33,410 nucleotides of DNA from a virus. Where the stretch lies: IMG/VR virus record IMGVR_UViG_3300049846_001507, positions 1 through 33,410 of that record. One strand, 5' to 3'. Made by a program: the position numbers and the translations under genes. The notes under the pieces were generated by a model that made no database searches, was not told the DNA's origin, and saw nothing but the letters and a program-made list of their open reading frames with translations. The first letter of the stretch is position 1; every line of letters starts with the position of its first letter. Positions 2,821-18,217 of the stretch are shown in pieces.

Positions 2821-3057
2821 ATGGAGTCTCTGTGGGATGAATTTGTGCGAAAAACTATCACTGGAACCTGTCTTTGCGGTCATGCGCGGCGGTCGCATTG
2901 GTGGATTACTGACGGTCTGACCACACCAGCTCCGTGTAAGCACGGATATCCCACTGGTTATTTGTGCGATTGTATCGGGTATGTCCCAAGACGGAAGCAA
3001 GAGCGCAGATATTGGGAGGGATTTTATGGATCTGGACGCACGCTTGGCGGCGATTGA
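2821..3057 (+). CDS. Small Cys/His-rich phage protein (CxCGHxxxxH type)
   Basis: The 78-residue protein has CLCGHARRSHWW near residue 18, then CKHG and CDC further on. This spacing (C-x-C-G-H-x4-H...C...C-x-C) is common in small phage proteins predicted to bind zinc. The start at 2821 is placed 5 bases from GAGG; the ATG just before it (2818) is equally open. Its C-terminus (RRKQERRYWEGF) is basic and overlaps the start of the next gene. Role unknown; a nucleic-acid or protein-interaction zinc module is a fair guess. Confidence 0.62.
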   Translation: MESLWDEFVRKTITGTCLCGHARRSHWWITDGLTTPAPCKHGYPTGYLCDCIGYVPRRKQERRYWEGFYGSGRTLGGD

Positions 3058-3445
3058 AGCACGACTGGACAAGCTGGAAGGACGAAAACCTGTGCAGCCG
3101 GGGGAGTTTGAGCGATTTTGGGCGGCCTACCCTAATAAGGTTGGGAAGAGAGCTGCACAGAAGGCTTTCCAGAACGCAAAGAATCGGCCCAGCATTGACG
3201 TGATCCTTGCCGCCTTAGAACGGGCCTGTAAATCGGAGAAGTGGCGCAAGGATGGTGGGGAATTTATCCCCAATCCGGCCACCTGGCTGAACCAGGGCCG
3301 GTGGGATGATGAGCCGGTTCAAATTGTCCATATTATCCCGAAGGCGATGCGACCGATTGAATGCCAGCCGAAAGAGCAGCAACCGTATAGCCCACCGCCG
3401 CCTGAAGTGCTGGCACTCCTGAACCGGATTGGGAAAGGCATGTGA
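3026..3445 (+). CDS. Replication-protein C-terminal-type domain protein
   Basis: The 139-residue protein starts at ATG 3026 after GGGAGGG. Residues 1-19 form a short coiled coil (LDARLAAIEARLDKLEG). Residues 27-95 then match the module often found at the C-terminus of phage replication initiators: FERFWAAYPNKVGKRAAQKAF, an ALERA helix, W, and FIPNPATWLNQGRW. In those proteins it follows a winged-helix or DnaD-type part and is thought to contact DNA or the helicase loader. Here it stands alone with a Pro-rich tail, so it may be a split or reduced replication protein. The domain match is good; the function is inferred. Confidence 0.68.
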   Translation: MDLDARLAAIEARLDKLEGRKPVQPGEFERFWAAYPNKVGKRAAQKAFQNAKNRPSIDVILAALERACKSEKWRKDGGEFIPNPATWLNQGRWDDEPVQIVHIIPKAMRPIECQPKEQQPYSPPPPEVLALLNRIGKGM

Positions 3446-7204: not shown

Positions 7205-8674
7205 TCATTGCTGCGTTGCGGCTCCCGCCGCCAATGGCGCCTGCCGCTTCATGAGTTCCTGTATCATCAGGTCATAGCGTGACGGCGGCTTTACTGCTGG
7301 CGATTGCAGAACGGCAGCCAGTTGATCGGGATGTTGATAGAGATTCGCCATATACCGATCAATTTTCGGTTCGATATGAGACGCATATCGTTCAGCCAAC
7401 CATTTCGTTGTTGTGACAGGCCGTGACAGCCAGGGCGGGAGGATTTGATGGGCGGCAGATGGGGCAATATCTACGCCTCCACGCAAGTCTGCCCGTTGAA
7501 TCGGTTTATACATTGCCTCTCGATTTTCCATGAGCGTATCCAGCACCTTACTACGGCCTGAATACTCAGCCAGATATGGTTTCCACAATCCCCCGCTGGC
7601 ATCGTCAATCGCGTCATCAATGGCCTTTTTGACCCCGATCAAGCGGGTAGCCCGGAAGGCTTCAGAGATTTTCGGGTCCGCCTTATCCATCGCGGCATCA
7701 ACCACTTGATCTAAGCCTTCTTTCTTGTACTGATAGAGCGTGCGGGCATCAATGCGCCCATACTGGTCTTTCATCTCAATCAGTTTGTCACGGATAGCAT
7801 TGAGGGCCTTTTCTGAAGCTGGAGCGCCTTTGACTTCAGGAGTCGCTAATTCTTGGTTGACTGCTTTCAGCACAGCATTCGCCTTAATCCCAAACTTGGC
7901 ATTGGCCGCATCCAGAGCCGCTTCCCGCATGGGACCAGTGACCGCATTTCTGGAATGAGCCCCCTGTTCTAACGCGAAGTCTTGAAACTTCTTCAACTTG
8001 GCAAATTCAGTCGAGATTCCGCCAGGGGTTTGCGCCACCGCCTGTTGATGGCCTTGAATCACTGGCCCAAACTCCGATCCGACCATCTTCTCGGCGGCGG
8101 TCTGCGGATACGAGGGCAACGGAGACGGTTGTGTCAGGACTCGTGCGGCATCATCGGTATATGGGCCAATCTTGTCACGTAACCAGGCATTGGACATCGC
8201 AATCGGGCCGAATTTCTCAGCCGTTTTGGCTCCAGCCCGCTTCATGATTTCTCCAGCCTTGACAACGGCAGGAATCACCGCAGGGGCTACGCCCGCAACC
8301 CCGATACGGGTCAGATCTGGCTGATTGGCTTCAGGGATAACGCTCTTGCCGTAGACGCCCAAACTTTGATTGAGGGTTTCCCCTAGGGCCGAACCTGCCA
8401 TCCCCCCAGGTAATCCCCCTAAAAACGTGCCCGCTGCGGTGGTCGCCATAGGAATTGCCATTTCCTTGACCGCCCTTCCTGCGTATTGCGGAAAGGTTTC
8501 AGTCGGTTTGACAGCCATGGCCAGTTTACCGGCGAGCGAGGTTTGCGGCTCACTGACCGTTTGTTTGGCTAAATCAAGGTTTTGGCGTTGAATTACCTGA
8601 ACGATTTGGTCGTCGGACATCGCGTCGGGAAACTCGACGTGCCCCATGCCAGGAACATCAATAATCTTCGCCAT
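7205..8674 (-). CDS. Putative internal virion / DNA-ejection protein
   Basis: The 489-residue protein starts with IDVPGMGHVEFPDAMSDDQI, an N-terminal motif frequent in large phage virion proteins. It follows with a Gly-zipper hydrophobic stretch (residues 75-110: TTAAGTFLGGLPGGMAG) that could insert in a membrane, then a long helical body with few Cys. Size, position next to another helical protein and absence of enzyme motifs fit podovirus ejection proteins, which leave the virion with the DNA and form a conduit across the envelope. Start overlaps the previous stop (TAATG). The role is inferred. Confidence 0.55.
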   Translation of the reverse strand: MAKIIDVPGMGHVEFPDAMSDDQIVQVIQRQNLDLAKQTVSEPQTSLAGKLAMAVKPTETFPQYAGRAVKEMAIPMATTAAGTFLGGLPGGMAGSALGETLNQSLGVYGKSVIPEANQPDLTRIGVAGVAPAVIPAVVKAGEIMKRAGAKTAEKFGPIAMSNAWLRDKIGPYTDDAARVLTQPSPLPSYPQTAAEKMVGSEFGPVIQGHQQAVAQTPGGISTEFAKLKKFQDFALEQGAHSRNAVTGPMREAALDAANAKFGIKANAVLKAVNQELATPEVKGAPASEKALNAIRDKLIEMKDQYGRIDARTLYQYKKEGLDQVVDAAMDKADPKISEAFRATRLIGVKKAIDDAIDDASGGLWKPYLAEYSGRSKVLDTLMENREAMYKPIQRADLRGGVDIAPSAAHQILPPWLSRPVTTTKWLAERYASHIEPKIDRYMANLYQHPDQLAAVLQSPAVKPPSRYDLMIQELMKRQAPLAAGAATQQ

Positions 8675-10086
8675 TATTCAATCTTCCCTGTTGCGGGGTT
8701 ATATTTTCTAATTTTCTCCGTCTGACTAGACGGAGGCGAAATAGACGGTGCAGCTCCACCGCTCTTATGTTTCATGTTATAGGCATCTTGCAACCGAGTT
8801 TTGGCATCATTGGAGAATGTAATAATGTCGTTCAATTGCTTCTTGAATTGGTCGATACCTTGTGTTGTATCAAGAGCGGCCAAATTCGATTCCAACCGTC
8901 TCCCTTCAGCATCGGAGACATTGCCTAACGCTCCACCTGTCTTACTGTTATTGCGCATGTCTTGCAGAACATCAAATGCAACTTGAGATTTGAGGGTATT
9001 GAGCAATGCACGGGCATCGGCAGCGTCAGTCCCAGGAATATCCGGGACTTTCCCGCGAATTCCGGTGATGCCAGCAAGACCAGGATGAGTCAAGATCGCA
9101 TTAGCCGTACTGGCCAATCGGTTCATATTAGCGGTGCTGGATTGCAATTGGGCTGTATCTTGATTGAAAGCTCCTTGCAATTTGGTGTCGGCAGGGCCTC
9201 CAGGAATAGCTTCAAGATTGCCGTCAGCAGTCATACGATACCCAGGAGGAATTTTTCCTTGCCCGCTCTGCGCCAGACGCGTTTTTGCTTCAAATTCCGT
9301 CTGCCACTTCTTAAATTCCTGATCCTTCGCTTGTTTTTCTCGTTCCAACCGTTCCCGATCTTCACGGGCAAGGGCCCGATCTCCAAGTTGGAGATTGAGG
9401 CTATCTAACTGCGCTTTGAGCGCATCGCCTTTTTGACCAAGCAAGAGTTTATTCATTTCTTCCCGTGATTCACGGTCTAGAGTTCGCTGTTCTCTGTCCA
9501 GTCCTTTCTGCTCTTCTATCTGTTGCCGTTCGGCCATAAACTTCGCTGCTTCTCGCACACGTGGATTCTGCCCCATCATGGCTTGCGTAATGGCTTGCTG
9601 GACTTCTTCCTTACTCCGTGGCTGCATGGTGGTCATGGTCGGGGCAGGCCCTTCCATGTCACCAGCCGGTCCAGCAACCGGCGCCCCAGGACCTTCGACG
9701 GGTTGTTCGACAGGCTTCGGCGCAAGGGATTGCTGAAATTCTGCCACTTCCTTTTTCTGCCGGTCCTGAATCGCTTTGGCCATCTCCATGCGCTTCTGGT
9801 CGTTGGCATGCATCAGATAGGCGCCCACCCCAGCTTGCGCAAGATTGCCCACATGCTGAAGCGGAGAGGGTGGGACATAAAATCGCCCGACCATCTGTCC
9901 TTGGGGCTGCTGCATGCCTTGGGAGAGCAACATCTGCGCAATCAGTTGTTTAGTGCGGTCGCCTTGAACCGCCGCATAGGCCTCAGGATCTTGGTCGTAG
10001 GCATTGGCGGCTTGCCCGATACCATAGAGTCCTATCGGCCCCATCATGCCTCCATACCCTCCACCATAGCCGCCTGCATAGTTCAT
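8674..10086 (-). CDS. Putative internal virion protein, coiled-coil rich
   Basis: The 470-residue protein has a Gly/Tyr/Met-rich start (YAGGYGGGYGGMMGP) and a Gln-rich helical region. A long coiled coil follows at about residues 165-275 (ERQQIEEQKGLDREQRTLD, REDRERLEREKQAKDQ), then a helical C-terminus with a Pro/Ser tail. It is coupled to the 489-residue protein by TAATG. Together they look like a pair of ejection proteins made in equal amounts. No catalytic motif. Strong as a virion gene by position; the specific role is inferred. Confidence 0.55.
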   Translation of the reverse strand: MNYAGGYGGGYGGMMGPIGLYGIGQAANAYDQDPEAYAAVQGDRTKQLIAQMLLSQGMQQPQGQMVGRFYVPPSPLQHVGNLAQAGVGAYLMHANDQKRMEMAKAIQDRQKKEVAEFQQSLAPKPVEQPVEGPGAPVAGPAGDMEGPAPTMTTMQPRSKEEVQQAITQAMMGQNPRVREAAKFMAERQQIEEQKGLDREQRTLDRESREEMNKLLLGQKGDALKAQLDSLNLQLGDRALAREDRERLEREKQAKDQEFKKWQTEFEAKTRLAQSGQGKIPPGYRMTADGNLEAIPGGPADTKLQGAFNQDTAQLQSSTANMNRLASTANAILTHPGLAGITGIRGKVPDIPGTDAADARALLNTLKSQVAFDVLQDMRNNSKTGGALGNVSDAEGRRLESNLAALDTTQGIDQFKKQLNDIITFSNDAKTRLQDAYNMKHKSGGAAPSISPPSSQTEKIRKYNPATGKIE

Positions 10087-10095
10087 AGTGTCCTC

Positions 10096-10335
10096 TTACT
10101 GAATGGGATTACCGTAGAGGTCAAAGCCAGCCATCGGATTAGACCGCTGCATTGGAGCGGTGTTCCCTTGGCCCATTCTCGCCATTTGCTGCGCTATCAT
10201 AGCCATGGCCACTTGCGTTTTCGGATCTTTCATGGCCTGTCCCATATTTGCCCGTGCCACACGCCACATTGGCGGAGATTGCGATTCAGATGACATCAAC
10301 AACGGCTGATCTGGATTATCATACGCGCTCAACAT
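10096..10335 (-). CDS. Small Met/Gln-rich virion-associated protein
   Basis: The 79-residue protein starts at ATG 10335, overlapping the stop of the diiron-type gene; longer in-frame starts would lie deep in that gene. It is rich in Met and Gln (VAMAMIAQQMARMGQG) and ends AGFDLYGNPIQ. It has no motif. Its position between the diiron-type enzyme and the ejection-like genes suggests a small structural or assembly protein. Confidence 0.55.
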   Translation of the reverse strand: MLSAYDNPDQPLLMSSESQSPPMWRVARANMGQAMKDPKTQVAMAMIAQQMARMGQGNTAPMQRSNPMAGFDLYGNPIQ

Positions 10336-10844
10336 GCTGTGCCTCCGTCCCATAGTCGTTGGGTAAGGACGTTCCAAATTGCCGCCTTCGTCCACTGGTA
10401 ATTCTTCATGATATGGCCTTGCAGCGTCACATCTTCAATCGCCAAGATTTCGTCTTTGACCATTTTGCCATGATCCAAGTCATGGATGGCATGATGCCGA
10501 AGACAGGGTAAAGGGCCATACAGTTCTTCGAGCGCATCTACCGTTTCCAGTGGCGTGGGGTTACATTCGAGGGCTGCCATATAGCCCAGGAGCATGCTCG
10601 GATGGTGATGGAAGATGTAATAATACTGGGCTCCCGCAATCGCCGCCGCCTCACAATCACACTCTGACGGCACGCCACCAAGACGCACAATGTCTTGCTT
10701 CAACCATTCTGCATGTTCCGTTTCAGTGGGGAGACGGTCCCACATATTGGCGGCAATCAAGAGTCCTTCCGTAGCCTGCATGAGCGCATGGTTAAACGTC
10801 ATTTGCACAAGCAGTTCATGTTTTGCGACAGGCATTGTCGTCAT
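10329..10844 (-). CDS. Haem-oxygenase-like diiron oxidase family protein
   Basis: The 171-residue all-helical protein matches the iron-containing redox / HDO family (CADD, SznF central domain type). The layout is N33-MWD, H44 and a following LGG; then YYYIFHHHPSMLLGYMAALE with Glu93; then LRHH-AIHDLDHGK, where His118-x3-Asp122-x2-His125 has the exact HDO spacing. In the family the first-helix Glu lies seven residues before the His; here that place is Arg37, with Asp36 beside it, so one ligand may be changed. HDOs activate O2 for oxidative cleavage or N-oxygenation. Placement inside a virion operon is very unusual. Fold is likely; activity is unproven. Confidence 0.68.
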   Translation of the reverse strand: MTTMPVAKHELLVQMTFNHALMQATEGLLIAANMWDRLPTETEHAEWLKQDIVRLGGVPSECDCEAAAIAGAQYYYIFHHHPSMLLGYMAALECNPTPLETVDALEELYGPLPCLRHHAIHDLDHGKMVKDEILAIEDVTLQGHIMKNYQWTKAAIWNVLTQRLWDGGTAC

Positions 10845-10845
10845 C

Positions 10846-11964
10846 TCAGAACATCATCGCTCCGGCCATGAGAGCGGCACTGCCCAACCCTGCGGCAGCT
10901 CCTTGCTGATTGCTCGCCGCAGCAGAGCGCGCATTAAACAAATCCGTATTATAGCCTGAGAGCGCATTCATCCCAGCAAAGGTCGGAGCTGGGGCAATCT
11001 GATTGCCGCCCTGGAACCCTGGGACAGCAAAGGGATTCTGCACTTGTGAACCCGACACGAGAGCCGTGATTTCGTTGATTGGCACTTCTCGTTGCGCCAG
11101 CATTTCCGTGATGGCCTGCCGTCGCCGTTCCGCATCGAGGCCAAAGTCGCGGGACGCTTCCTGGCCCGCCGACATGAAGGCGACATTCCTCGCATCGTTG
11201 TAGGCCCGGTCGATGGATCGCATGCGGTTGTCATAAGCTGTACTCCCTGGTCTGATTCCTGCCGCAATCAGTTCAGAATTGGCATTATCGCGGGAGACAT
11301 TGGTATCTTCATTGACACGGCTCATCATGGCATTGATGACTTTGTTGCGAGTGTCCTCAGCATTTCCAGGCATCGCGGGAATACCACTGTAGTCAATGCC
11401 TTTGCCGACGACACCTTGCAGCGAGGTTGCGCCTTGTTCGCCTAAGCCACCAAGGAGCTTCTTGACGCGATTGGTCTGATCGAAAATCGCCTGTTGTTCC
11501 GGCGAGAGGGTTTGCCGAATCGTGGCTTGATTGGGATTCAGGATGTAGTTGTCTTTAACAGGAGCGACTGGGGGTTTCCCTGACGGCCAAAAGGCTTCAA
11601 ACGGGCCTTCAAATGGACCACGATCCCCGCCACCGAAAAGACCGAAAATACTGGTGGGATCATGGACCTGTTTTACGGCATCTAGTATTCCACCCCCCCC
11701 ACCATTTCCACCGCCGCCTCCGGTCGCCCATTGGTTATAGGCTTTATCAAAGGCTGCTTTTTGGCTGGTATAATTCTGAAGCGCCTTATCATACCCAGAC
11801 TGGTCAAATCCTGTGCCCCATTCAACGGTTTGATTGCCATAGGGCGTAATGACGTTAGGGTTATTGAGCTTGGCCTGGGTTTGGGCGGCCTTGATGTTTT
11901 GAGCGCCCTGGGTTTGGGCGGCTCCGATATAATCAGGCGCAGGCGGTGGACTTGGCGCACACAT
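10846..11964 (-). CDS. Phage virion protein, Gly-rich, putative tail or ejection component
   Basis: The 372-residue protein opens MCAPSPPPAPDYIGAAQTQGA with NNPNVITPYGNQTV, a start shared by many podovirus virion proteins next to ejection genes. It has a poly-Gly linker (about residues 82-92, encoded partly by a G8 run), a helical middle (QQAIFDQTNRVKKLLGGLG, then NSELIAAGIRPGSTAYDNRM) and an Ala-rich C-terminus that is weakly hydrophobic. GGAGG precedes ATG 11964, which lies inside the end of the GNAT gene (32-base overlap). Likely a virion protein; the exact part is not certain. Confidence 0.6.
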   Translation of the reverse strand: MCAPSPPPAPDYIGAAQTQGAQNIKAAQTQAKLNNPNVITPYGNQTVEWGTGFDQSGYDKALQNYTSQKAAFDKAYNQWATGGGGGNGGGGGILDAVKQVHDPTSIFGLFGGGDRGPFEGPFEAFWPSGKPPVAPVKDNYILNPNQATIRQTLSPEQQAIFDQTNRVKKLLGGLGEQGATSLQGVVGKGIDYSGIPAMPGNAEDTRNKVINAMMSRVNEDTNVSRDNANSELIAAGIRPGSTAYDNRMRSIDRAYNDARNVAFMSAGQEASRDFGLDAERRRQAITEMLAQREVPINEITALVSGSQVQNPFAVPGFQGGNQIAPAPTFAGMNALSGYNTDLFNARSAAASNQQGAAAGLGSAALMAGAMMF

Positions 11965-12457
11965 CGGGGGCCTCCATAGGTTGAGATGGTGCGCTGTCAG
12001 CGCCAGCAGAGAGGAGTTTTCGGTACTGTTGTATCACAGGTTCATATTTGAGAAAAGTCAAGAGTTTGTTGGCCACAGTATTGTCCACTTCGCACGAGAA
12101 TAGGATTTCATGGACCCCCATGGCAGCCAGCGCCCGCTCCACATGCTTAATGAACCGGATAGCGTTCATACCGTCCCGATACTGAGGATGGATGAAGAAG
12201 GTGTCTTCCGTCGCCATCAAGAGCTGGCTGTGCATGGAGGGCGTCACGTAAATTCCGAAATAGCCGATGAGTTTGCCGTCATGCCGAGCGGTAAACGCAT
12301 AGAAACAGCCCTGTCGCTCATAGGCGTCATACCGAGCCAAGGAAGGATTTAAGGGTTCATGCCTACGAAATCCCTTAGTGCCCTCCCAGTGCTGACGGGC
12401 CAGTTGCATCGCTTCATCCCAGATAGCGGAAATCGGCTCACAGGCAAAGGCAATCAC
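11933..12457 (-). CDS. GNAT-family acetyltransferase
   Basis: The 174-residue protein has the GNAT order: N-terminal helices, a strand pair (FYAFTARHDGKLIGYFGIYV), then the acetyl-CoA motif region EDTFFIHPQYRDGMNAIRFI, and later VDNTVANKLLTFLKYEPV. The CoA pyrophosphate loop (QYRDGMNA) is looser than the classic R/QxxGxG/A. GNATs transfer acetyl groups to amines of proteins or small molecules. Similar enzymes occur inside virion operons of some podoviruses, with unknown targets. Start is GTG at 12457, coupled to the upstream TGA. Confidence 0.72.
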   Translation of the reverse strand: MIAFACEPISAIWDEAMQLARQHWEGTKGFRRHEPLNPSLARYDAYERQGCFYAFTARHDGKLIGYFGIYVTPSMHSQLLMATEDTFFIHPQYRDGMNAIRFIKHVERALAAMGVHEILFSCEVDNTVANKLLTFLKYEPVIQQYRKLLSAGADSAPSQPMEAPDVCAKSTACA

Positions 12458-14016
12458 GATAACGAATCTCCCGTCTCATAGATCATCGTGGAGCCCATCC
12501 ACTTCCCGCGAATCGAGTCGTTTTCAATCTTGAGCTTGCCGGAGAGCCAGCGCCCTTCCCAAGAGGCGGGCCCTCCCCATTGTCGAATAACCGTCGGTGA
12601 AGAAGTCCACAGATTTTGGTCCCATTTTGCAGTCCCCCACAACGAGGAACCTCCAGAGGCAAATATGGTTGATCCAACCATCGGCTCATCTTCAAAATCC
12701 ACATCAATATCAATAGAGTAAGACACGGTGCCATTCACCGTCAGGATTGGCATAAACAACCGACTTTTCTTGGGGCGACTATCACCAAAGTCCTGAAAGG
12801 CTTGTTTAGCATAGTAAATGATATTGTTATTATTATCGTGCTCGCCGGTCCAGGCTTTATAGACCGCTGTGGTCTTACAGAAGTATAACTCTTTATTAAA
12901 GACCGCGAAGTCCTCCGCATCCCATTCGGTGAACTTACACCAGGCTTTCGTATTCGTGTTCATGACATACTGTTCATGAGTTCCATCTTCGGCAAATGGG
13001 ACATTGACTAGCATGGCGTCACGAGCAGGGAAGCTAATCGCCTTCCAACCAAACGTGGACCCATAGGTGCGGGCGGTTTCCGTAAAGACATTCTGGATCT
13101 TGTACGACAGCGCAAACTTGGCCCGTTCATCGCCGCTCATCAGCAAGGCCGACAAAGGAAACGCGCCTTGTTCGGTGAGCACCACACACTCAGCGCCATA
13201 CTGCATAATACAGCGGCGTCCCAGCGGTTTGCCGATGACGTAACTGCCGACTTTGGCCCATGTCGTCGAGCTATTCGGATTAGTCCCCTGATAAACGATG
13301 GCTTCGCCTTCGCTCGTCACGGCCACGAAGAAGTCATCGACTCCGCTCCCGCCGTCACGAGTCCAGCTCGCGCATGCCATGAGAAACCCGCCTCTGGCCG
13401 CCTCTCCTGATAAGTCAAACTCAGAGAGCGCCCCACCCGCCGCGCCTGCGGCCAGATACCAGAAAGATAGACTGTTCTTCTCAATGAATATCAGACGCCC
13501 CTTAAACACACACACCCCAATAATGTTGGTGGTCGTGAGTCCAGTCAGAGCGGGAGTGCTCGCGCCATCTACGGCGGTCCAGGTGGTTCCATCAAAATAA
13601 GCCGGTTTATCCACACCATTAACAGCAATCAGCCAATTACTTGACCCATCACCAAACATCGTCCATTGGTGTTTGCCATTGGTCCGAGCTAGTTTCGAGG
13701 CGCCGACCGCCCCCGCACTAGTCACGTCATAAATCCCGCTGGACGTATAGGCATACATCGTACTGGTGCCCGCCATCGCGTTATGGACGGCGAGGGTTTT
13801 GATATTGCCGGTGGTGCCGGTCGCATGCGACGCATGCCCTCCGCGCATCTCCACATAAGAAGGCGTTGGGAACCAATTTTCCAGCGTCACGGCTTCGGTA
13901 GGTTTCATGGCCGCGAGTGCATCGCGTCCATTCCACCCACCTATCGGTGGTGCGTAGCTCTTGGTGGTGGAAACCCGTGTCCGCTGTCGAGTTTTACTGA
14001 GTAGTGCAGTTCTCAT
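12454..14016 (-). CDS. Tail hub / packaged-DNA stabilisation protein (P22 gp10-like beta-propeller)
   Basis: The 520-residue protein is beta-rich with repeated blades carrying Trp/Asp turn motifs (YFDGTTWTAVDG, VNGVDKPAYFD, IVYQGTNPNSSTTW, AWTGEHDNNNN). Its N-terminal segment (PPIGGWNGRDALAAMKPTEAVTLENWFPTPSYVEMR) is typical of podovirus tail proteins in the gp10 position. Such proteins close the head after packaging and sit between adaptor and needle or fibre. It lies next to the adaptor gene, as in P22 and BPP-1-like phages. ATG 14016 overlaps the adaptor stop. Confidence 0.75.
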   Translation of the reverse strand: MRTALLSKTRQRTRVSTTKSYAPPIGGWNGRDALAAMKPTEAVTLENWFPTPSYVEMRGGHASHATGTTGNIKTLAVHNAMAGTSTMYAYTSSGIYDVTSAGAVGASKLARTNGKHQWTMFGDGSSNWLIAVNGVDKPAYFDGTTWTAVDGASTPALTGLTTTNIIGVCVFKGRLIFIEKNSLSFWYLAAGAAGGALSEFDLSGEAARGGFLMACASWTRDGGSGVDDFFVAVTSEGEAIVYQGTNPNSSTTWAKVGSYVIGKPLGRRCIMQYGAECVVLTEQGAFPLSALLMSGDERAKFALSYKIQNVFTETARTYGSTFGWKAISFPARDAMLVNVPFAEDGTHEQYVMNTNTKAWCKFTEWDAEDFAVFNKELYFCKTTAVYKAWTGEHDNNNNIIYYAKQAFQDFGDSRPKKSRLFMPILTVNGTVSYSIDIDVDFEDEPMVGSTIFASGGSSLWGTAKWDQNLWTSSPTVIRQWGGPASWEGRWLSGKLKIENDSIRGKWMGSTMIYETGDSLS

Positions 14017-14720
14017 AGTGGCCAATTATATTCAGGAACCACAACCCCAGGACGCGCCTGCGTGAACCCATTATCCATGTAGAGTGTCGGTTTTCCGCCA
14101 TCTCGCCCCAGTGCATCCGCTACGCGCATTTCATAATCACGAAAGTCCTCGGCATATTCCAATCCGTGCTCTTTCTTCCAGCGCCAGCGGAGGCCCATAC
14201 GAACGAGTTCTTCCGGCAACAGCACGGTATCGGTGTCCAATGTAAAGGCGGATTTGTACGTGACGAGATCGGCGCCCAAAATCCAGTTCTTCGAGATGTA
14301 TTCAAAGTACACGCTATGGCCTGCCGTGGGCGTCGGGTGCATGAGCAGCTCCCCGCCACGAATGCGATAGTGATAACGCGGGGCTGTACTGACTGACGCC
14401 TTAAACCGTTGCCATTTGGTGGAATGCATCAAGGGGATAGGAAGTTTGTCCGTCCGATCCCACATCGTCTCGTCCTTAATGTACTGAAAGCCGTTTGTTG
14501 CAATCGAAGTCATAGCCCCCTGATCTTCGGTGGCTAGAGTCGTATGAGACGCTTCGAGGGTCAACCCTTCCCAGTCGCCACGCCGCGAAAGGGCTTCTCC
14601 TTCCTCCTCCAATAATGCCCGCACCTGCATGACTTGGGCATCGGACGTGCCCAGGACCGTCGAAGGCACCGGCAACTGGGTCCGTTCGCAAAAGGCTTGC
14701 ACGATGGTCAACAAGGACAT
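14013..14720 (-). CDS. Head-tail adaptor (tail tubular A / gp4-like)
   Basis: The 235-residue protein begins LTIVQAFCERTQLPVPSTVLG with LLEEEGEALSRRGDWEGLT, the characteristic start of phage adaptor proteins that dock under the portal. The middle is beta (YHYRIRGGELLMHPTP, SVYFEYISKNW). The end is helical (LLPEELVRMGLRWRWKKEHGLEYAEDF). It would extend the portal channel and bind the propeller protein encoded next. Family recognition is good. Confidence 0.78.
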   Translation of the reverse strand: MSLLTIVQAFCERTQLPVPSTVLGTSDAQVMQVRALLEEEGEALSRRGDWEGLTLEASHTTLATEDQGAMTSIATNGFQYIKDETMWDRTDKLPIPLMHSTKWQRFKASVSTAPRYHYRIRGGELLMHPTPTAGHSVYFEYISKNWILGADLVTYKSAFTLDTDTVLLPEELVRMGLRWRWKKEHGLEYAEDFRDYEMRVADALGRDGGKPTLYMDNGFTQARPGVVVPEYNWPL

Positions 14721-14978: not shown

Positions 14979-15270
14979 TCGCCAAATGCTCCTCAATGGA
15001 ATGTCGCAGCATCGGAGTGATTGCAATTTCAGCTTTCTGATTTATCTTGACCATCTCATTCCGAAATGACTCAATAGCTGCGCCTGCCTGTCTCGTCTGT
15101 TGACTATTTTCGATGAGAAGAATCGGCAACCATTTGACGGCGCAATCATATTCGTCAATTAATTCCCCTGTATTCGGATTAGATCCTCGTATTTTCACGA
15201 ACCAAGCGCAGTGAAGTTTTACGCAATCTTTTTTCACGAGCGGACAATAAGTTCCCTGTTCCAGTTGCAT
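14956..15270 (-). CDS. Conserved phage Cys-motif protein
   Basis: The 104-residue protein has YCPLVKKDC, KLHCAWFVKIRG, ELIDEYDC and AVKWLPILLIENSQQTRQAGAAIESFRNEMVK. This is a conserved family found beside head-tail genes of podoviruses. Four Cys in the first half suggest a zinc or Fe-S site. The second half is a helix. ATG 15270 overlaps the fibre stop (TAATG). Biochemical role unknown; family recognition is fair to good. Confidence 0.68.
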   Translation of the reverse strand: MQLEQGTYCPLVKKDCVKLHCAWFVKIRGSNPNTGELIDEYDCAVKWLPILLIENSQQTRQAGAAIESFRNEMVKINQKAEIAITPMLRHSIEEHLANGNIICK

Positions 15271-16277
15271 TAGTCTTTGCTCGCAATAATAAGATCCACG
15301 TATTGAACTGCAATGTTTAATCCGTGCCCGTGTCCTCCATCGCCACCAACCGATGTCGATACAGCCCCATGGAGTCCCCATCCTGCACCATTGAGTACCG
15401 ATCCACCACCGGTACCATCAAGACACGTCGTTGTATGTGTATGCGATGGTATTTCAGCAGTGACCAGCGTATGACTTACCACGAACCCATCTTCTGTATG
15501 GTCGGCAAATACAGAGGTAAAGGTTCTCGTCCCTCCCGAACTTGCCGTTCCAGTCACAACGCGAAGTGCTTTATTGTTATGAGTCACTTGTTTTGTCCAT
15601 CCCGTCGGTGCTGACGTTTGCTGGAACAGCATCAGAGTGCCAGAAGGGATTGGGCTTACGGTATCGACATATTGTTTTGGGGCGATTCCCAGATTGGTGA
15701 CTGGATTAGCCGATACTGTGCCAGTCACAATCACTGGGCTATTGATCGTTGAAGTCGCTGCGCTTTCAAGGATAAACCTCGTGCCGTCGTAGGTGATCTC
15801 GACCATCATGCCGGATGGAATATCGCCAGCCGCCAAGGCTGTCGTCCCATTCTTGGTGATGGCCTTGGCGCCAAGTCCAGAGACATTGACTGTCACATTG
15901 GTCGTATTGGCCCCACTGGCAATGAAACGGAAAGTCTGACCTGCGGTGTAGGAGGTAATCGCAGGTGAGGGCGTTAAGGTGATAACATCGGCTGTACCGC
16001 CAACGGTCCCAACATAGACGCCAGTACCATCTTGGACATTACCGATGTTGGCCGCATCGGTTCTGGCCGTGCCCGCCGCGAGGCCGGTAATCTTATTGGA
16101 CCCCATTGGGATATTGGCCGTGACGGTGGTTTGGCCATCTTTGGTGATACAGGTCGAGAGCCCTGTCGCCAGATCGGCGGTCAAGTTATTGAACACTGTA
16201 GGGTCAATATCCGTACCGGCCACAACTGGCTGCCCCGCTGTATTGATCTGGAAAAGGCCCGATCCGTTAAAACTCAC
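15270..16277 (-). CDS. Tail fibre protein with collar-type C-terminus
   Basis: The 335-residue protein starts (GTG at 16277, seven bases after GGAGGTGTCCT) with FNGSGLFQINTAGQPVVAGTDIDPTVFNNLT, a virion-attachment segment common to podovirus fibres. Beta-rich repeats follow. From about residue 215 there is a collar-like tip: IPSGTLMLFQQTSAPTGWTKQ, KALRVVTG, GTRTFTSVF. A His-rich end (SHTHTTT, GGHGHG) could bind metal as in trimeric fibre tips. It should mediate host recognition. No reverse transcriptase or variable-repeat pair is visible, unlike the BPP-1 fibre. Confidence 0.78.
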   Translation of the reverse strand: MSFNGSGLFQINTAGQPVVAGTDIDPTVFNNLTADLATGLSTCITKDGQTTVTANIPMGSNKITGLAAGTARTDAANIGNVQDGTGVYVGTVGGTADVITLTPSPAITSYTAGQTFRFIASGANTTNVTVNVSGLGAKAITKNGTTALAAGDIPSGMMVEITYDGTRFILESAATSTINSPVIVTGTVSANPVTNLGIAPKQYVDTVSPIPSGTLMLFQQTSAPTGWTKQVTHNNKALRVVTGTASSGGTRTFTSVFADHTEDGFVVSHTLVTAEIPSHTHTTTCLDGTGGGSVLNGAGWGLHGAVSTSVGGDGGHGHGLNIAVQYVDLIIASKD

Positions 16278-16922: not shown

Positions 16923-17447
16923 TTAGGTGAGGGGATTCACGGCAATGGCCCGCATATCCCGCTGTTTAATGTGATAGCGCGGCTCCATAATGGACACCGG
17001 CTGAAATCCTGCCTTCTCCAAGGCTTCTTTGAGTAACCGTGCTGAATAACCCCACTTGTGCGTCATCTCCACACTTTTGTAGCGAGGGTCTCCATAGAGC
17101 GCCCACCAGCTCATTTGGGCATTGACCGATGCCCCACGCTTTTCGCATTGCGTGAGGTAGGAAAACACCTTATCCAAGCAGGGGACTTCCACGATCAAAC
17201 GGCCTCCAGGGACCAGAATCCGCTTCCACTCCTTGAGGACATCCACCGCTTCCCATTCATAGAAGTGCTCCAACACATGAATGGCTACCGCTTCTTGTAT
17301 CGTCTGCGACTCAATCGGCAGATCCCGTAGATCGGCTACGAGGTCAGCAGAGCTTCTGGCGCGCTCGCCATCGACGTTGATCCAGCCGGTCCAGGGCTTG
17401 TGCCCGCACCCCAACTGGACCCGTAGACCGTCACAAGGGTCTTCCAG
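16923..17447 (-). CDS. SAM-dependent methyltransferase (class I), start uncertain
   Basis: The product of about 174 residues has motif I LRVQLGCGHKPWTGW, the acidic NVDGE after strand 2, AVAIHVLEHFYEWEAVDVLKEWKRIL, and PGGRLIVEVPCLD. This is a small-molecule or glycan type methyltransferase fold. The C-terminus (GYSARLLKEALEKAGFQPV) is complete. The frame has no ATG or GTG near motif I; CTG 17447 is my estimate. The first 110 bases overlap the glycosyltransferase gene in another frame. Either it uses a rare start, or it is translated from the GT by frameshift, or a base error separates one fused gene. Confidence 0.72.
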   Translation of the reverse strand: MEDPCDGLRVQLGCGHKPWTGWINVDGERARSSADLVADLRDLPIESQTIQEAVAIHVLEHFYEWEAVDVLKEWKRILVPGGRLIVEVPCLDKVFSYLTQCEKRGASVNAQMSWWALYGDPRYKSVEMTHKWGYSARLLKEALEKAGFQPVSIMEPRYHIKQRDMRAIAVNPLT

Positions 17448-18217
17448 ACATTCGCCACGCGCGCCGGAGAAAATCGTTCCTGCACGTATGCCTGTGACTG
17501 GATCAACCGCTGATTCGCTTCCTGGTGATGTGTGGACGCCCATGCAACTCCTTCCAAAAGATTCCCAACCCATATGCCAGGAATGCCTTCTAAGCTCGGA
17601 TGCGGGGTGGCTACGACAAAGCACCCCTGCCGAATGGCTTCCACGGCGCGGTTGGCGGATTTCGTGGGGGCGGAATCCGGCAACAGCACAATGTCTGCCT
17701 TGATGAACTCGTCCCGCATTGTTTCTTTGCTCCACGGGATAAAGCCCTCGATATTCGAGACGAGCCGTAAGGGGTAGTCTTTCAGCGACTCTCGAAACAT
17801 CGCCATCCCGTCGTAGTTCTGGGCATGCCCGAACCACAGCAGGTTGTTGCCCGCCACATGCGGCAACACACATTCAAATTCGTAGGGATCATCAATCACC
17901 GATGCTTCACGTCCAAAGTCCTGCTCAATAAACTGTGCAAGGAGCACGCTGGAACATGTCACAGCATCGGCCTGTCGTATCGCCTCTTGATACCAAGGAA
18001 AACTCAAGTGCGCATCGCACACATCGACAATGACTCGCTTGCCGAGCTGCCGAGCCTTTTCCATTAGGGAAGGGGTTTGCTTCGTGATCTTGGCGATAAT
18101 CCAGACCTCAGCCTGTTCGTTATTCATGGGGATATTGAGAACTGCTGACGGAATCGCGGCACGATAGCGATAGCTCGCCTGCTGCGCACTGGTTTCATGG
18201 AAAAACGAGAATGTCAT
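17336..18217 (-). CDS. Glycosyltransferase (GT-B, family 1/4-like)
   Basis: The 293-residue protein starts FFHETSAQQASYRYRAAIPSAVL. The C-terminal donor half has LLWFGHAQNYDGMAMF, then ADIVLLPD and KSANRAVEAIRQGCFVVATPHPSLEGI, the typical nucleotide-sugar pocket of GT-B enzymes. It lacks a long N-terminal domain, so it is compact. The last 38 residues (after ANVWKTLV) read the methyltransferase gene in another frame and look non-homologous. ATG 18217 overlaps the upstream stop. It probably works with the neighbouring methyltransferase and MptE-like protein on a glycan. Confidence 0.72.
   Translation of the reverse strand: MTFSFFHETSAQQASYRYRAAIPSAVLNIPMNNEQAEVWIIAKITKQTPSLMEKARQLGKRVIVDVCDAHLSFPWYQEAIRQADAVTCSSVLLAQFIEQDFGREASVIDDPYEFECVLPHVAGNNLLWFGHAQNYDGMAMFRESLKDYPLRLVSNIEGFIPWSKETMRDEFIKADIVLLPDSAPTKSANRAVEAIRQGCFVVATPHPSLEGIPGIWVGNLLEGVAWASTHHQEANQRLIQSQAYVQERFSPARVANVWKTLVTVYGSSWGAGTSPGPAGSTSMASAPEALLTS

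Follow-up and report, generated by a model that had tools for sequence, protein, structure and literature searches.

The stretch of viral DNA analysed here (IMG/VR record IMGVR_UViG_3300049846_001507, 33,410 nucleotides; hereafter the window) contains on its minus strand, at positions 10329-10844, an open reading frame (ORF) encoding a 171-aa protein (P0001) that resembles the haem-oxygenase-like diiron oxidases (HDOs); the plus strand of the same interval is interrupted by stop codons. The original prediction placed an ORF here but left its strand unstated, and both the frame and every residue named at that time are confirmed in the translation, which includes N33-x2-D36, R37, H44, L55-G56-G57 and E93, as well as Y74-Y75-Y76-I-F-H79-H-H-P-S-M-L and H118-x3-D122-x2-H125.

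The gene lies in a virion operon, all of it on the minus strand. Upstream are genes for a tail adaptor protein (14013-14720, 235 aa; profile matches to phrog_6013 and SU10_adaptor-like), a nozzle or tail-tubular-B-like protein (12454-14025, 523 aa; matching phrog_5107, which carries an 'amidase' label, with homologues annotated as tail tubular B or stabilization proteins), a GNAT acetyltransferase (11933-12457, 174 aa; PF00583, E=7e-7) and a virion structural protein (10846-11964, 372 aa; phrog_6121, E=8e-39), the last of which is separated from the HDO gene by a single base. Downstream follow a small ORF (10096-10395) that probably starts inside these limits and has a similar counterpart in the nearest relative (L001), an ejection-protein-like gene (8674-10086, 470 aa; phrog_2534, 'released from the phage upon host infection', E=3.6e-20) and a gene for a second large late protein (7205-8674, 489 aa), with a homologue in the same place in L013. 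The surroundings were thus correctly described from the start as a tail or virion protein upstream and an ejection-protein-like gene downstream. The order of late genes in T7 is adaptor-nozzle-gp13-gp14-gp15-gp16, which the order in the window resembles. In the window and its relatives, the GNAT gene stands between the nozzle and phrog_6121 genes with or without an HDO gene, a position like that of T7 gp13. Other genes on the same strand include one for a 316-aa protein with a methyltransferase PHROG match (16923-17873, E 1.2e-7) adjoining the tail genes, and one for a tail-fibre-like protein (15270-16277), whose homologues (L013, 9756-10694; L012, 1098-2243) are found on different sides of the nozzle-ejection block among relatives.

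Family assignment and predicted metal site

Profile matches, the predicted fold and the conservation of the ligands all support the assignment to the HDOs made in the original prediction. The Pfam search proposed along with it was positive above the cut-off of 28.9 bits for relatives, with PF14518 (Haem_oxygenas_2) scoring 36.6 bits against the copy in a Herminiimonas prophage and 36.9 bits against a Streptomyces relative, but the window copy itself remained below the cut-off (20.3 bits, E=5.4e-4). The same profile matched 8 of 10 relatives, with a best E value of 1.5e-7. A profile including the bacterial kin matched 3dde, a structure with the haem-oxygenase fold, at 3.9e-9, and all six predicted ligands were aligned to equivalent residues. 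The AlphaFold2 model of the window protein (pLDDT 91.6, pTM 0.85) predicts a haem-oxygenase-like fold, and the top Foldseek matches in the PDB were 3dde, CADD, the CADD-like 3b5o, TenA proteins, UndA, BesC, HrmI and SznF, with probabilities of 0.96-1.0, TM scores of 0.46-0.71 and modest E values (4e-3 to 0.2). The model of a Streptomyces relative (pLDDT 92.3) reached E values of 2e-5 to 3dde and 1.6e-4 to UndA. The best match by both profile and fold is therefore 3dde (Sden_3740 of Shewanella denitrificans, annotated as TENA/THI-4), which differs from the phage protein in being bacterial, uncharacterised and longer (232-239 aa), with about 17-18% identity. No family for the protein was found in PHROGs or NCBIfam, and no viral protein in the BFVD structure library was a convincing match. 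A ferritin-like reading was raised by short, weak bacterioferritin profile matches around E-x2-H; it was dropped since the fold search ranks haem-oxygenase-fold proteins first and Glu26, the would-be helix A ligand of a four-helix ferritin fold, is not conserved.

Six residues on three separate helices of the model are predicted to bind metal: Glu41 and His44 on helix 35-54 (codons at 10713-10724), Glu93 at the terminus of helix 82-93 (10566-10568), and His118, Asp122 and His125 on helix 113-134 (10470-10493), where H118-x3-D122-x2-H125 aligns with the H-x3-D-x2-H of 3dde. All six are identical in 40 of 40 viral and 8 of 8 bacterial relatives, down to about 33% identity, as are Asp51, Tyr75 and Gly87. 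The original prediction described the metal site as altered, Arg37 being taken as a replaced ligand because a Glu was sought seven residues before His44, the spacing in CADD. This part of the prediction does not hold, as the predicted first ligand is Glu41, three residues before His44, and the ligand set is intact in all 48 homologues. Position 37 is His in 37 of the 40 viral and all of the bacterial homologues and Glu in none, and it is therefore not an eroded ligand.

Judged from the alignment, the ligand order E/D-x2-H, E, H-x3-D/E-x2-H appears in every viral (40/40) and cellular (8/8) homologue. The same order and spacing occur in AetD, whose ligands are D76-x2-H79, E140 and an H-x3-E-x2-H motif (PMC11611611). 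Three histidines and three carboxylates ('3H/3C') define the majority class of HDOs, in which the Fe1 site is open and, in five members with structural data, the substrate binds directly to one iron (PMC13108848). The fourth carboxylate of the SznF type (3H/4C), an extra Glu on an auxiliary helix, was not seen, the only upstream candidate examined being Glu26. That residue was invariant in the first three sequences and was rejected as a ligand, as it is Gly, Ala, Asp, Val or Pro in others; the column holds Glu in 29 of the 40 viral copies and Val in all eight cellular ones. The six residues would hold a pair of metal ions, either Fe/Fe or, as in CADD, Fe/Mn, between the three core helices, with one metal keeping an open site for substrate and O2 as in the 3H/3C class, and we infer metal binding and O2 activation on this basis.

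Like the members of the HDO superfamily (UndA, AetD, BesC, SznF, HrmI and CADD, covered in part by PF14518), the phage protein is thus predicted to be a haem-oxygenase-like helical bundle with 3-His/3-carboxylate ligands on three core helices. It differs from them in that the group is phage-encoded, located in a virion operon and about 164-230 aa long. The window copy is some 50 residues shorter than its bacterial kin (171 versus 223 aa) and lacks their N-terminal helix; in addition, its loop before core helix 1 is shortened, as in L001 and L004. It also has Asn33, Arg37 and Thr40 where nearly all other homologues have Tyr, His and Glu. None of the three is a ligand position, yet the pocket or partner of the window copy may differ.

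Relatives and the shared genomic slot

Searches of IMG/VR recovered two relatives from the single sequence, ten loci from an alignment and 39 loci from a 12-row alignment, the last of which also identified a prophage of Herminiimonas contaminans and eight bacterial genes from Streptomyces and Acidobacteriota. The non-duplicate set comprises 40 viral sequences, with the Herminiimonas prophage counted among them, and 8 cellular ones. An annotated phage collection searched by tblastn with two queries contained no close phage relative, and a first scan of genome contigs gave no match, the prophage and bacterial kin being revealed by the wider alignment. In a survey of 300 Burkholderiales genomes, 38 matches were found, of which only the Herminiimonas prophage was of the phage type; the other 37 were far weaker (E 1e-6 to 1e-13) and are apparently ordinary chromosomal HDOs.

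The viral copies form one clade (support 100/99). Pairwise dN/dS values, for the pairs where they were measurable, range from 0.06 to 0.27, and the viral HDOs are under purifying selection; residues invariant across 48 relatives together with this low dN/dS exclude chance. The nearest cellular relatives found, the HDOs of Streptomyces and Acidobacteriota (L139-L146; E 1e-30 to 1e-38 to the phage profile), share with the phage proteins the six ligands and a QYY...H...LLGY core and form a separate clade (100/99). All six Streptomyces genes (L140 and L142-L146) lie directly downstream of a conserved radical SAM gene, a pairing that could belong to an uncharacterised peptide or natural-product pathway.

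The position of the gene is nearly constant. A phrog_6121 homologue lies directly upstream of the HDO gene in 38 of the 40 viral copies, and nearly all of these gene pairs overlap or abut (gap of -4 to +2); the largest gap among carriers with a phrog_6121 gene is 261 bases (L110, 5665-5925). No phrog_6121 gene was detected in L116 and L125, and in the latter the HDO gene (2846-3418) overlaps the end of the nozzle gene with no GNAT or phrog_6121 gene between them, so that among the well-seen carriers it alone departs from the usual order. The presence of the gene, in contrast, is patchy. Six annotated relatives, namely Manatee Spring, EBPR, Rhizobium, Sulfitobacter, Bradyrhizobium and Microcystis phages, have the same gene order without an HDO (the annotation of the Microcystis phage includes no GNAT), and only 4 of the 51 nozzle relatives with enough downstream sequence carry one; IMG/VR contains at least 585 nozzle relatives. 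The nozzle tree implies at least eight changes between presence and absence on well-supported branches and 15 by parsimony. Within the window's own set of five on this tree, an HDO is present in three, the slot is empty in L029, and L033 holds another gene. Distances between HDOs are correlated with those between nozzle proteins, but loosely (Mantel r 0.41; 0 of 2000 permutations). A single clade, patchy presence and loose co-variation with the nozzle therefore indicate one viral HDO lineage that has been inherited, lost and exchanged, and the exchange is nearly always at the same site.

The other gene in L033 (5803-6468), found also in L069 (9551-10252), encodes a PAPS-reductase-like protein (PF01507) in the place of the HDO. 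Further loci with this gene are L151-L230, and among the 82 best loci examined a phrog_6121 homologue lies upstream in 79, nearly always abutting. Cys-Cys and Cys-x2-Cys are typical of the 4Fe-4S site of APS reductase, and these positions are kept in at least 95% of the slot proteins. With positive controls run and some of the records being incomplete, the PAPS-reductase-like gene was absent from 22 of 22 HDO records, and the HDO was absent from all 15 records with the PAPS-reductase-like gene and all 9 with an empty slot. The phage cysH morons (JC1 gp65 and BcepIL02 gp67) are comparable to the HDO in occupying an equivalent slot after GNAT and virion protein genes and in their late position, accessory nature and predicted iron cofactor; however, their fold and chemistry are unrelated (PP-loop, CC...CxxC) and they are far more widespread. 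It is conceivable, though we consider it unlikely, that the slot holds one of two unrelated iron-cofactor enzymes, an HDO or an Fe-S PAPS-reductase-like protein, and never both, because they serve the same late-infection need, for example redox or sulfur/amino-acid chemistry or the modification of a late protein. If true, the slot would represent a novel type of oxidation/reduction module for late infection, with interchangeable occupants.

Possible roles during infection

The reading that we favour, with a probability of roughly 0.7, is that the protein is a genuine compact HDO serving as a late-expressed accessory oxidase encoded in an exchangeable enzyme slot, rather than a part of the particle. 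It would be produced late from the virion operon, with its translation probably coupled to that of the phrog_6121 gene, and would act inside the infected (or lysogenic) cell, its site being one that in related phages is empty or holds the PAPS-reductase-like Fe-S protein. Late expression and action outside the virion are inferred. Given its membership of the HDO class and the open Fe1 site, the protein would be expected to oxidise a molecule bearing a carboxylate or an amine, and by analogy with the class the likeliest substrate would be a small molecule of this type, such as an amino or fatty acid.

Whether the protein is packaged bears directly on this reading. An HDO packaged in the particle and released together with the internal proteins could act as soon as infection begins, either in the envelope of the host or in its cytoplasm, as might be suggested by the position of its gene between phrog_6121 and ejection-like (phrog_2534) genes in nearly every carrier and by its overlap with or abutment to the upstream gene. 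However, close relatives with the same operon can lack the HDO (L029), and a parallel comes from Burkholderia phage JC1, in which the genes for head-closure gp61, gp62, GNAT gp63, virion protein gp64, PAPS reductase gp65, gp66, gp67 and gp68 follow one another, and in which four of the products (gp61, gp64, gp67 and gp68) were identified in purified virions by mass spectrometry, whereas gp63 and gp65 were not (PMC9144972). The analogous slot protein and the GNAT were thus not found in a particle in which their neighbours were, which argues that the slot is for late enzymes outside the particle. The phrog_6121 profile showed no detectable homology to gp66 of the JC1 relative BcepIL02, the equivalent of JC1 gp64, and the parallel with this other phage group is therefore one of gene order only. 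Packaging is rated as rather improbable, and by analogy an accessory oxidase acting in the cell is preferred over a packaged one. The suggestion in the original prediction of a repurposed structural helix bundle, which would retain the HDO fold without catalysis, is disfavoured more strongly and considered very improbable: the protein is compact (171 aa) and encoded in a virion operon, but its 3-His/3-carboxylate set is intact in 48 of 48 homologues, whose identity otherwise falls to about 33%, and its patchy presence is unlike that of an essential structural part.

Several other activities would be compatible with a catalytic HDO. A rather unlikely possibility, suggested by the GNAT neighbour and the abutment to phrog_6121, is a protein-modifying oxidase that acts on a side chain in a virion or ejection protein of the phage, or in a host protein, with the GNAT as a second modifier. 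Radical SAM neighbourhoods are common for peptide maturation, and since a radical SAM gene precedes all six of the Streptomyces relatives described above, a peptide or protein substrate is possible; in addition, HDOs have been linked to ribosomal peptide modification (PMC13108848). However, the phrog_6121 and ejection genes occur more often without an HDO than with one, no partner protein tracks the HDO as far as examined, and the role of the radical SAM protein in Streptomyces is itself putative. Protection of the infected cell or its DNA, by iron sequestration or removal of reactive oxygen, is improbable. It has a precedent in the HDO-family protein DtpC of Acinetobacter, for which such a role has been proposed and which is needed, redundantly with KatE, to survive oxidative stress on drying, with ligand mutants being unprotected (PMC13232832), and the alternative slot occupant is also predicted to bind iron (CC...CxxC); however, no reaction has been assigned to DtpC itself, and a protein with two irons is ill suited to iron storage. 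Finally, a self-sacrificing p-aminobenzoate synthase of the CADD/NePabS type, which would supply folate to the phage, was considered in view of CADD being among the top structural neighbours and of the invariant tyrosines (Tyr75, Tyr88). It was rejected as extremely improbable, as this reaction requires, besides a sacrificial tyrosine, an amine-donor lysine (Lys152 in CADD; PMC11965152) and there is no conserved Lys column, with Lys in at most 16 of 40 members at any position of the phage-family alignment.

HDOs form a rapidly expanding class of enzymes; those known so far produce antibiotics, alkenes and cofactors in bacteria. The original statement that such an enzyme is not part of any known phage module still stands, there being no PHROG, no good BFVD match and no paper: a literature search, with subscription papers mostly outside its scope, found no report joining HDOs and phages. 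We rate the viral HDO as belonging to a known class of enzymes, of which it forms a new branch specific to viruses, in an unexpected genomic niche. A phage-specific clade with an intact predicted active site and under purifying selection extends the HDO class to viruses and raises the testable question of which oxidation a phage needs late in infection. Additionally, because the slot is shared with the well-known phage 'cysH' genes, two swapping enzymes can be compared in one phage background. The carriers are very diverged, uncultured short-tailed phages, and in their cultured relatives the HDO is missing from an otherwise identical gene order. The prophage-like region of Herminiimonas contaminans (L138, NZ_JADOEL010000005.1) has the full adaptor-nozzle-phrog_6121-HDO order and is a possible laboratory source of a carrier phage.
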